A DNA stretch of 10,499 nt. Source: Candidatus Desantisiibacteriota bacterium (GTDB taxonomy: Bacteria > JACRDZ01). This document shows positions 3,794 through 10,499 of this stretch, piece by piece. Below the pieces are notes generated by a model. The model did not search any database. It was given only the letters and a program-made list of their open reading frames with translations, and was not told where the DNA came from. The first letter of the stretch is position 1. Each line of letters starts with the position of its first letter. Position numbers and translations under genes: made by a program. Location of the stretch: contig JACQWU010000033.1 of assembly GCA_016209155.1 (NCBI GenBank), positions 1-10,499 of the forward strand, read 5' to 3'.

Positions 3794-4042
3794 TTAATCA
3801 ACATTAATCCTTGTCCACTCATTATCAATCTTCCGGTAAAATCCCTCAAGCTTAAGCTTTGCCAGCTTAAATTCTTCATCCAATTTGTTCAAAAAATCGC
3901 TGTCAAACTCAATTGCCAGACCGCAATCTGTGGTTATTTTTCTGGGTTTTATTATGGTTTTATTTTTTATTTTCAATTTTTTAAAAATTTTTTCCGCAGA
4001 TAAAGTATGATATGTGGTAAAAAAAACCGCAAGAAATTGCAT
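3794..4042 (-). CDS. DUF3343 family protein (putative Se/S carrier-like)
   Basis: This is a small 82-residue protein. The pattern FTTYHTLSAEKIFKKLKI, then KPRKITTDCGLAIEFD, matches DUF3343 (putative selenium/sulfur carrier-like), whose hallmark is a PRxxSSxCG motif with one conserved cysteine, here C40-G41. The family is named for its resemblance to, and association with, selenium and sulfur-relay proteins such as YedF; its biochemistry is not settled. The C-terminal 25 residues (KLAKLKLEGFYRKIDNEWTR) extend slightly past the usual domain. The gene starts 9 bp after the nucleotidyltransferase-like stop and ends 12 bp before the Nudix start, so translation is probably coupled; its own ribosome binding site (TAGGTAG) is weak. 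A sulfur or selenium link would fit the AprAB-like genes elsewhere in the window, but they are not in the same operon. Confidence 0.7.
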   Translation of the reverse strand: MQFLAVFFTTYHTLSAEKIFKKLKIKNKTIIKPRKITTDCGLAIEFDSDFLNKLDEEFKLAKLKLEGFYRKIDNEWTRINVD

Positions 4043-6625: not shown

Positions 6626-6908
6626 GTATTTTGATATTTTTTGAAATTTTATGGTGAAATTTTAATACAGGAGTATCCCCAAAAATAATACGGGATTATA
6701 ATCATGGGAAAAACCTTCCACAAAAAATCGGATATGGTGCCATGTGCTGTATTTTTAGCATATGACGAGATTTTTTTGCAGTAGAATATTTTCCCTCGGC
6801 GGGGAGAAACACATTTTTCGGAAGGACCGGATTATTTATTACCTATAAATTACATTTAACGATTTACATTTCTATCTCTGTTTTTGGGCATTAATTTTGT
6901 AATCGGTC

Positions 6909-7098
6909 AGAAGGTGTGAAAAAATTGAAAATATAAAAACAAAAATTTCCATCTTGAATTTTTGGTAGGGGTTCGATTCATCGAACCCGTTTACGGGCTT
7001 GATAAATCAAGCCCCTACAATATTAAATTTTCATTTTTTATCGAGATAGGGAATTCTGATATAAAAAACGCGTTTTTATCAATTTTTTCACACCTTCT
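6909..7098. mobile_element. MITE-like element with 19-bp terminal inverted repeats
   Basis: AGAAGGTGTGAAAAAATTG at 6909-6927 is matched perfectly by its reverse complement at 7080-7098. The similarity extends inward a further 8-10 bases with gaps (ATATAAAAAC against GTTTTTAT). The element is about 190 bp, non-coding and carries a compound palindrome in its middle. Size, perfect terminal repeats and lack of a gene fit a miniature inverted-repeat element moved by a transposase elsewhere. I see no convincing target-site duplication: the flanks read GGTC and TAAG. The right end coincides with the stop of the broken toxin gene (7098-7100). Confidence 0.55.
6965..7018. repeat. Compound palindrome: two tandem 9-bp hairpins with matching outer ends
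   Basis: GGGTTCGATTCATCGAACCC (6969-6988) and GGGCTTGATAAATCAAGCCC (6995-7014) are each perfect 9-bp stems with 2-base loops, separated by GTTTAC. The outer GTAGGGG and CCCCTAC also pair. From memory, related GTAGGGG-type double hairpins are scattered through many environmental bacterial genomes. It sits inside the MITE-like element. Confidence 0.75.
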
Positions 7099-7373
7099 TA
7101 AGTTATTGGATGGAGGAAAATAATTGATTCTTGATTGTCATTGCAAGCGAGTGAGCCAAAACCCAGAGTGAAACGAAGGGGAAGCAATCTCAATGGGAGA
7201 TTTGATATATGAAAGATACCGCTATTATCGATATTCAATTTATGATAGAGTTTTAATTGATTATTGATAAATGTGTCCAAATCTTCTTCGAGTGTTCGGA
7301 ATCTTTTGGAAAGCTTTTTTAAATCTTTTTCAAACTCTTGTACTTTCTTGATATCGTTAAATATCTTCCCCAT
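7098..7373 (-). pseudogene. RelE-like toxin, 3' half replaced by a dispersed repeat
   Basis: The open frame has 91 codons, but only residues 1-59 look native: FEKDLKKLSKRFRTLEEDLD, then KLYHKLNIDNSGIFHISNL. This is typical of the first half of RelE/HigB-type mRNA-interferase toxins that have a KRFxTLEEDL helix. From residue 60 the frame runs through a dispersed repeat (7133-7193) and gives a meaningless tail. The expected core strands and the catalytic arginine or lysine region (KxFxCxSLKGKG..SGIRVIY) are missing, and I find no remainder on the far side. The start overlaps the antitoxin end by 17 bp (7357-7373), as in a working module. The truncated toxin is almost certainly inactive, while the antitoxin is intact. 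Whether the 59-residue fragment still binds the antitoxin is unknown. Confidence 0.7.
7133..7193. repeat. Dispersed repeat of the GTCATTGC...GCAATCTC type
   Basis: The sequence opens GATTGTCATTGCAAGCGAG and closes GAAGCAATCTC, with ATTGC and GCAAT arms. From memory, this end sequence (GTCATTGCGAGC...GAAGCAATCTC) is a very widespread intergenic repeat in bacteria, here slightly diverged. It lies inside the toxin reading frame and defines the point where similarity to RelE-like toxins stops. Confidence 0.65.
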
Positions 7374-8148
7374 TATAACTCCTTACGGAATATTCAGAAG
7401 TACGATAGAAAACAGATTCATAATTAATTTGTTGATTATCTTCAGCAGTTAACCATGGGACATCATTGTGAGAATATTTACTTATTTCTGAAGCATTTTT
7501 TTTTTTTATTCTGTCTAATACTTCATCAATCATTTCAATTTCATGACCTTTTAATTTTGCTAAATCCGGCTTTCTTAATGGCAGATATTTCCTCTGCGGA
7601 TATTGAAAATATTTGTCATTAATTCTGACTAAATCCTTCCCCTCCATTTCGTTAATAATTTTACTGAATTCTTTTGGAGTCGGGCCAAAATGGTTTTTTA
7701 TATATGTTGCACCAATCAATTGCTCTTCATATTTTTCGTAAAAATCAAAATCAATAAAATAAAGTAATTTATAAATAACAGTTTCTCCGATATTCGGTTT
7801 TGAACCAACTTTATTAAGTATGTATAATAAAACTTCCTTAAATTTTTCAATATTTTTCTGCGGAACACTTATCCGTATTTCACCTTTTGATTCTTCAACT
7901 TTTTCTTTTTTCTTTTCCAATATCACGTTAATATCTTGTTTTAAATCCAAAAGTACATCTGTGCTTATATTAAAAATTTTCGAAAACTTAGCAATTTCTT
8001 CTGCACTTATTTTTCTGTCACCATTCTCAATTTGAGAAAGAGAAATTCTATTAATTGTTAATAATTCTGATAGTTGTTCTTGAGATAATTCAGCACTTTC
8101 ACGAAGTTTCTTTATTTTTAATCCTATTTTTTTATTAAATATATCCAT
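7357..8148 (-). CDS. HTH-Panacea (DUF4065) antitoxin and autoregulator
   Basis: The product has 263 residues from the chosen ATG at 8146-8148. Residues about 6-68 form a Xre/Cro-type helix-turn-helix: IGLKIKKLRESAELSQEQLSEL, then INRISLSQIENGDRKISAEEIAK. A Lys/Glu-rich linker (70-95) follows. Residues about 100-240 form a Panacea (DUF4065, SocA-like) domain with VIYKLLYFIDFDFYEKYEEQ, IGATYIKNHFGPTPKEF and a later APWLTAE-like segment (VPWLTAEDNQ). Panacea is known as a promiscuous antitoxin domain that neutralises many toxin folds; the HTH form also represses its own operon. The ATG has an AAAGGGGGG site about 8 bases upstream. The earlier in-frame ATG at 8184 has none and lies inside the predicted promoter. 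The next gene is the truncated RelE-like toxin, overlapping by 17 bp. The gene itself shows no lesion, so it may be kept for repression or anti-addiction. Confidence 0.85.
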   Translation of the reverse strand: MDIFNKKIGLKIKKLRESAELSQEQLSELLTINRISLSQIENGDRKISAEEIAKFSKIFNISTDVLLDLKQDINVILEKKKEKVEESKGEIRISVPQKNIEKFKEVLLYILNKVGSKPNIGETVIYKLLYFIDFDFYEKYEEQLIGATYIKNHFGPTPKEFSKIINEMEGKDLVRINDKYFQYPQRKYLPLRKPDLAKLKGHEIEMIDEVLDRIKKKNASEISKYSHNDVPWLTAEDNQQINYESVFYRTSEYSVRSYNGEDI

Positions 8149-8174
8149 TTTATAGCCCCCCTTTAAACATAATA

Positions 8175-8203
8175 AATATATCATATGTTATATTTTAAGT
8201 CAA
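8175..8203 (-). promoter_or_regulatory. Promoter of the HTH-Panacea operon
   Basis: On the minus strand, TTGACT (8198-8203), a 17-bp spacer and TATATT (8175-8180) lie 27 bp before the ATG at 8148. The short leader holds only the AAAGGGGGG ribosome binding site. The earlier in-frame ATG at 8184 would fall within the promoter, which supports the shorter start. Confidence 0.65.
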
Positions 8204-8409: not shown

Positions 8410-10134
8410 ATGAATAAAAATGAAAATGACAAAAAAGTAGAATTTCAGGAAGCGGATATTCTTATAATCGGCGGCGGAACTGCGGGATGTTTGGCAGGTA
8501 TTGAGGCCAGAGAAAAAAATCCCGGACTTTCTGTAATCATTATGGAAAAAGCTCATATCGACCGTTCAGGGTGCCTTGCGGCAGGGATGAATGCGATTAA
8601 TGCCTATATAAATCCGGGAGAAACTCCTGAAAGTTTTGTAAAATATGTCCGCTATGATGCAATGGGTCTTGTCCGTGAAGATCTGATAAAAAGCGCTGCC
8701 GAAGAAATAAATTCAGTGGTTAAAAAAGTTGAAAGCTGGGGACTGCCGGTAAAAAAGAATAAAGATGGAGAATATTCACCGCGCGGAAGATGGAATATTC
8801 AGATTAACGGAGAATCTCTAAAACCTATTATTGCAGAGAAAGCGCGCAGTGCCGGAGCTAAAGTTCTTAACCGTGTTGCGGCAACAAATTTAATTATAAA
8901 AAACGGAAAAGTAATCGGCGCTTTCGGGCTCGGGGTAAGAGATATGAAATTATATGTCATAAAAGCCCGCGCGGTAATTGTATGCACAGGCGGGGCAAGC
9001 GGAATATACAAACCCAATAATGACGGATCCGCTCATCATAAAATGTGGTATCCTCCGTTTAATACAGGAACAGGTTATGCAATGGGAATCCGTGCAGGCG
9101 CTGAGATGACAAGTTTTGAAATGAGATTTATTGCTCTGCGGACAAAAGATGTGATAAGTCCTACGGGTACTCTTGCTTTATGATTCGGGGCAAAGCAGAT
9201 TAACGCAAAAGGTGAACAATTTATGAAAACCCGTTACAGCCTTTTTGGCGGCGAAGGCGCTCCAACCTGTCTTCGGGTATATGGACCTACGATTGAAAAT
9301 AAAGAAGGCCGCGGGCCCTGTTACATGGACACAAGGCATCTGAATCCCGGCGAAGTAAAAGCTCTTAAAAGCTCATATCTGGATATGTATCCGGGGATTG
9401 TTCTTTACTGGGCTGCAAACGGCATTGACCCCGGCAGGGAACCTGTCGAAATTTGTGGAACAGAACCCTATGTAACCGGCGGGCACTGCCAGGCAGGATA
9501 TTGGATCGGCATAAATCGTCAAACTACTATTCCCGGGCTATATGCCGCAGGAGATGTTGCAGGCGGATATCCATATAAATTTGTCAGCGGATGCTGGGCG
9601 GAAGGGATACTTGCCGCGCGCGGTGCAGTTGAATATATAAAAACTCAAAAAAATATAAAATTTAATTTTGATAAAGAAATAAAAGATGAAAAAAATAGAA
9701 TTTTTTCTCCTTTTGATCGTTTTAATAAAGAAGGAGAAGGAATTACCCCCGATGAAATGGAAGAAAGACTCCAGAAAATAATGGATGAATACGCGGGCGG
9801 AATAAGGACCTGCTATGAAATAAATGAAGAAAAATTGAACGTTGCGCGTAAGCATCTGGTCAGAATGAAAAAACAGATTACATATCTGATAGCAAAAGAC
9901 AGTCATGAACTTATTAAAGCGCATGAAGTCATAGACCGGATAGAAGTTGCTTCCGTGCTGGTTGAACATTTATCATACCGCAAAGAAACACGCTGGCCCG
10001 GTTATACCACGCGCCTTGATTATCCTGAAAAAGATGATATTCACTGGCTCAAATTTGTTAACTCGGTAAAAGACAGCAAAACAGGAGAAATAAAAATAAT
10101 CGAACGTCCGTATAAGAAAATAGTTTCGGACTGA
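8410..10134 (+). CDS. Adenylylsulfate reductase alpha-like flavoprotein (AprA-like) with in-frame TGA
   Basis: The product has 574 residues if the TGA at codon 258 is read. It is an FAD enzyme of the fumarate reductase/AprA superfamily, predicted to reduce adenylylsulfate to sulfite and AMP with electrons from the AprB-like ferredoxin encoded 115 bp downstream. Visible parts are the FAD fold ADILIIGGGTAGCLAG (15-30) and EKAHIDRSGCLAAGMNAINA (46-65), and the active-site run FEMRFIALRTKDVISPTG, whose arginine fits Arg-A265 of Archaeoglobus AprA. Beyond the TGA come GGHCQAGYWIG (active-site histidine), YAAGDVAGGYPYKFVSGCWA and the C-terminal helical domain ending in ETRWPGYTTRLDYPEKDD. The two parts are in one frame with no other lesion. 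The ATG at 8410 follows GGGAAGAGGG; the upstream ATG at 8380 lacks a site. Type and context resemble the AprAB-like pair of clostridial assimilatory sulfate reduction rather than true dissimilatory AprA, which is my recollection. If the TGA stops translation, the gene is dead. Confidence 0.85.
9181..9183 (+). other. In-frame TGA codon within the AprA-like gene
   Basis: The reading frame is GGT-ACT-CTT-GCT-TTA-TGA-TTC-GGG-GCA-AAG, and it stays open for 316 further codons that match the AprA family. The family context around the site (GTLAL-x-FGAKQIN) suggests a small residue such as glycine, so a GGA-to-TGA change would explain it. No typical bacterial SECIS hairpin is seen 15-40 nt downstream. 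A 7-bp hairpin TTGCTTT/AAAGCAG does enclose the TGA in its loop, starting upstream of it. Confidence 0.9.
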
Positions 10135-10249: not shown

Positions 10250-10499
10250 ATGAGTATTTTAATAGATAAAAATAAATGTACAGGCTGTAAGGGTTTAAAA
10301 GAACCAAAATGCGTGCAAAACTGCCCCGGAGATTTAATGGCTCTGGGAAAAGACGATAAATCATATATTCGTGAACAAAGAGACTGCTGTGACTGCATGG
10401 TATGTGTAAAACTGTGTCCTCATCATGCTATTATAACCAAATTACCCTATCAATTAGCAGATTACAAAGCAACTCTCGTCCCTATGGTATCAAAAAAAA
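10250..10499 (+). CDS. AprB-like ferredoxin with two [4Fe-4S] clusters (3' end outside window)
   Basis: The frame has 83 complete codons with no stop before the window edge. Two cluster-binding motifs are visible: C10-x2-C13-x7-C21-x3-C25-P and C46-x2-C49-x2-C52-x3-C56-P. The first, with the longer x7 loop followed by CPGDLMAL, is the arrangement of AprB (CxxC...CxxxCPxDLM) rather than of small clostridial ferredoxins. CVKLCPHHAI also fits AprB. Its expected role is electron transfer to the FAD of the AprA-like subunit in the cytoplasm. The ATG has a TTGGAG site about 9 bases upstream. It is separated from the AprA-like gene by a palindromic repeat but is on the same strand and is the expected partner. 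No lesion is seen in the visible part, which matters for judging whether the operon is still used. Confidence 0.88.
   Translation, partial: MSILIDKNKCTGCKGLKEPKCVQNCPGDLMALGKDDKSYIREQRDCCDCMVCVKLCPHHAIITKLPYQLADYKATLVPMVSKK

Follow-up and report, generated by a model that had tools for sequence, protein, structure and literature searches.

The in-frame TGA of a putative assimilation-type aprA gene is almost certainly an ordinary GGA-to-TGA change

INTRODUCTION

Does a TGA in the reading frame of a redox flavoprotein gene specify selenocysteine, is it read through, or is it an ordinary substitution? The question arises from a 10,499-nucleotide stretch of DNA (hereafter, the window) in which an aprA-type flavoprotein gene, encoding an adenylyl-sulfate/PAPS reductase alpha subunit (8410–10134, plus strand, 574 codons), has one TGA inside. 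In the original prediction a GGA-to-TGA mutation or an assembly error came first, and recoding was left open because of a hairpin around the TGA, an intact AprB-like partner and a DUF3343 gene. We examined the codon, its RNA context and the column of homologous residues, together with the metagenome-assembled genome (MAG) from which the window comes (3.08 Mb in 352 contigs, 79% complete).

RESULTS

A single TGA interrupts an otherwise conserved aprA-type frame

The aprA-type frame opens at ATG 8410 and runs for 257 codons to the TGA at 9181–9183, which is followed by 316 sense codons and by the gene's own stop, also a TGA (10132–10134). The read-through product matched NF005331 (NCBIfam, adenylyl-sulfate reductase subunit alpha) over residues 9–572 with 798.8 bits against a cut-off of 557, which makes it a full-length member of that family, and PDB chain 8a8o_A over residues 15–571. 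The gene is thus in frame on both sides of the TGA and free of a frameshift, as had been claimed. The good conservation noted past the TGA was borne out as well: no family-invariant position is changed downstream (0/82) versus two of 90 upstream, and it is therefore unlikely that the gene has been dead for a long time. The TGA replaces conserved Gly258 and is one substitution away from GGA, the commonest glycine codon of the gene (24/58). Neither a terminator nor a promoter was found at the TGA site, and the MAG, at 79% completeness, yielded no second, intact copy of aprA.

The product is predicted to be an assimilation-type APS/PAPS reductase subunit

Homology predicts that the product is the alpha subunit of an assimilation-type APS/PAPS reductase and relates it to MtPAPSR (PDB 8A8O). 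That entry is the nearest solved structure (686 bits), followed by Archaeoglobus AprA 1JNR (1jnr_A, 418 bits). The homology with the alpha subunit of MtPAPSR from Methanothermococcus thermolithotrophicus (PMC10322725) is full-length (15–571 versus 8–554) and the two proteins have the short AprA form in common, but an internal stop occurs only in the window gene and not in MtPAPSR or the NF005331 family. MtPAPSR Lys120, Arg121 and Ser122 have been linked to PAPS specificity (PMC10322725), whereas the window protein has Arg, Trp and Asn at these positions of the 8a8o alignment; its substrate could be either APS or PAPS. The dissimilatory AprA of Archaeoglobus fulgidus (1JNR/2FJA; TIGR02061) belongs to the same protein family and R265 and neighboring residues are conserved, yet the window protein scores 481 bits with TIGR02061, below the cut-off of 642.

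In the closest relative found (locus L088), the aprA-type gene lies beside a sulfite reductase-like gene, an ATP sulfurylase gene (sat) and an ABC transporter, which suggests that the gene serves sulfate assimilation. Homology and these neighbors would together assign APS/PAPS reductase activity to the window protein. CysD and CysN are encoded in the MAG (contig C265) and would supply APS; no Sat of the PRK04149 type was found in this 79% complete assembly.

Neighboring genes give no support to recoding of the TGA

Downstream of aprA lies the 5′ part of a gene for an aprB-like ferredoxin subunit (10250–10499, plus strand). TIGR02060 is the best match of this fragment, with 56.4 bits against a cut-off of 135.65; the gene is broken just past the window, where 21 N mark a gap in the scaffold (contig positions 10500–10520), and the partner called intact in the original prediction can be followed only up to that point. 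Similar short N runs occur in several other contigs of the MAG. As an argument for recoding the partner has no weight, since every AprAB system should have one. The DUF3343/Se_S_carrier gene (3794–4042, minus strand) is real (PF11823, 53.5 bits) and belongs to a proposed Se/S carrier family (PMC5322559), but the family is also present in organisms without SelD (PMC5322559). We found no evidence that the gene bears on the TGA. Elsewhere in the window (7098–8184, minus strand), a gene with an HTH plus a SocA/Panacea domain overlaps a 91-aa ORF without a family match; the arrangement looks like a Panacea-type toxin–antitoxin pair.

Relatives carry glycine at the TGA column

We took the codon aligned with residue 258 at every locus obtained from a genome-contig scan and from a scan of 98 genomes. 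Glycine occupied the column in all 50 AprA-like relatives in which it was aligned, at 46–72% identity; the closest of these, L088, is 72% identical, so that the state of the immediate lineage at this codon lies outside the comparison. The relatives are titled in their records as Bacillota, Nitrospirae, Planctomycetota, Chloroflexi, Actinomycetota and archaea, and write the glycine with all four GGN codons (GGA, GGC, GGG and GGT). The crystal-structure relative 8A8O also has glycine, while canonical AprA has Leu or Phe. Neither Cys, Sec nor an in-frame TGA occurred at the column among the 50 relatives and canonical AprA. Selenoprotein positions, by comparison, usually have Cys homologues.

Alignment to 1JNR placed the arginine of the ALRTKD motif at R265, Leu257 at L278 and the TGA codon at F279, where the close relatives of the window protein differ from Archaeoglobus fulgidus AprA in having Gly. 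The TGA therefore sits where the original prediction had put it, next to the counterpart of Leu278, which we take to line the flavin pocket. The same prediction had held that the context favors glycine and that a plain glycine codon in close relatives would refute recoding; plain glycine is what the relatives have.

The RNA around the TGA does not resemble a SECIS element

A hairpin holding the TGA in its loop does exist at 9173–9193 (plus strand), but it is weak, with G–U in three of its seven pairs, and regional folds are no stabler than shuffles (z from +0.01 to +1.29), which leaves it without force as support for recoding. The 50 nucleotides from the TGA (9181–9230) fold at −1.8 kcal/mol (z +1.04), a stability equalled or surpassed by 170 of 200 shuffles. 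Folding of this segment revealed no SECIS hairpin immediately downstream of the UGA, in line with the original reading that a normal one is missing.

The selenocysteine and UGA-decoding machinery was not found

The original prediction proposed that recoding would also be refuted by a genome without selA, selB or selC. In the 79% complete MAG we found no selA, no selD and no tRNA-Sec (selC) above the gathering score. All selB matches in the MAG fell below the cut-off: the best is EF-Tu and the second CysN, as read from their sequences and, for CysN, from the adjacent CysD as well. Because the MAG is only 79% complete, these negatives are not absolute; selA was also absent from three genomes of the same phylum that are 91–98% complete.

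ARAGORN, run on tRNA loci, gave no tRNA with a UCA anticodon among the 150 of 206 tRNA candidates scored, and the anticodons seen in tRNA-Gly genes were UCC and CCC. TGA is the terminal stop of 27 of the 109 surveyed ORFs of at least 300 codons and, in addition, of the aprA-type gene itself. Since TGA ends normal genes, a code with UGA as Gly (table 25), for which the UCA tRNA was not found either, and a code with UGA as Trp were both rejected.

Isolated in-gene stops occur elsewhere in the MAG

We surveyed 80 stretches (857 kb) of the MAG for same-frame stops between long open segments, setting ordinary gene borders aside. Besides the one in aprA, about seven isolated in-gene stops of all three kinds (TAG, TAA and TGA) were listed. 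Three have homology on both sides: a TAG that takes the place of the Glu seen in structures, in a PksL-like polyketide ketosynthase (L139, contig C43, position 2755), a TAG in Lon protease (L152, C215, 3976) and a TAA in a DHH–CBS phosphodiesterase (L168, C62, 2384). The others were judged by coding character and a domain on one side, and are likely TGA in a copper oxidase (C335) and, just before the SATP motif, in a helicase (L190, C138), and likely TAG in a DNA methylase (C13) and an MlaD protein (C328).

Single stops of all three kinds thus occur roughly once per 100 kb of assembly. This rate is low, because none of the 44 PF00005 matches in the MAG has an internal stop and, among 10 PF00890 matches, only aprA has one. 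Consensus error at low coverage could produce a rate of this order, and so could ordinary pseudogene content; we lean towards error because at least one stop strikes a housekeeping gene (Lon). In-gene stops of three kinds indicate a background in this MAG that is not specific to TGA, and we found nothing that distinguishes the single stop in the conserved aprA frame from these other isolated nonsense codons.

Contigs of the MAG showed further features. On C138, at about position 6720 of the minus strand, a frame encoding a GTP-dependent PEP carboxykinase passes straight into the helicase frame with no gap between them, probably as an assembly chimera. On C43, in a phylum that is uncultured and has been little sampled, polyketide synthase frames exceed 2000 codons, and the nearest PDB entries to the ketosynthase encoded there are Bacillus PksL-type enzymes. 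The product of the last gene of contig C84 (15430–18108, L134), of 892 aa, finishes with an Arg-rich segment (CRRPCHWRTLVFGSDVPWRYFRSSSWKARGG...) that is out of keeping with the rest, pointing to a frameshift or to foreign sequence where the contig ends.

DISCUSSION

Programmed selenocysteine, in which SelB and a SECIS hairpin would have the UGA read as Sec at a redox site, draws on the closeness of the TGA to the flavin, one residue from the Leu278 counterpart, and on the DUF3343 gene in the window. On the terms set by the original prediction, it is ruled out by the glycine column together with the sel genes that were not found. The poor fold of the 50 nucleotides from the TGA and the occurrence of DUF3343 in SelD-lacking organisms also speak against it, as does a literature search that found no report of a Sec-containing AprA, and we consider it exceedingly improbable. 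A recoded TGA would have meant, as far as that search shows, the first selenoprotein AprA; to the extent that the present data allow, the recoding reading is refuted. Very little probability attaches, likewise, to lineage-specific decoding of UGA, as Sec or a standard residue, in aprA alone, the genes responsible lying in the fifth of the genome that the MAG lacks; we rate it no higher than selenocysteine.

The conserved frame past the TGA would also fit stop readthrough or suppression, with a near-cognate or suppressor tRNA inserting a residue so that full-length AprA is made. Here the missing UCA-anticodon tRNA and the UGAU context, which is not of the leaky UGAC type, count against it; readthrough at a basal level would yield traces only, and no single suppressor explains in-gene stops in the same MAG that include TAG and TAA. 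We hold this to be very unlikely, if marginally less so than the other alternatives. The TGA might instead separate two functional polypeptides, with reinitiation at ATG 9223, where a 303-codon frame opens (9223–10134, plus strand) behind an SD-like AAGGTGA. This ORF was delimited mechanically, starting at the first ATG past the TGA. The ATG is the conserved Met272 of the full protein and is not likely to be a new start; the SD-like stretch is made of codons that encode the conserved NAKGEQFM motif, the cut would fall inside the FAD_binding_2 domain (residues 16–387), and none of the relatives is split at this point. A functional split is accordingly as improbable as selenocysteine.

We conclude that the TGA is almost certainly an ordinary GGA-to-TGA substitution, either a consensus or assembly error or a recent nonsense allele, and is decoded as no residue. 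The glycine of the relatives and the failure to find selA, selB, selC and selD uphold the first-ranked reading of the original prediction, while the hairpin, the AprB-like partner and the DUF3343 gene, on which it had kept recoding open, carry no weight. A single base would have changed in the codon of a conserved but otherwise unremarkable glycine of an assimilation-type AprA, the ancestral codon presumably being GGA. We infer that the source is somewhat more probably an error in the consensus or assembly of this fragmented MAG; with a somewhat lower but still considerable likelihood, it would be a real and recent nonsense allele in the sampled population.

If the TGA is real, translation stops within the FAD-binding domain once 257 residues have been made, and, with no second aprA in the MAG, the cell would be without the AprAB reductase from the aprA-type copy. 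The locus also provides a worked example: a TGA in the frame of a redox gene, together with a fortuitous hairpin and a neighbor associated with selenium, gives the look of a recoding event, and this impression vanishes when one checks the residues of homologues at that column, the sel genes and the in-gene stop background of the MAG.
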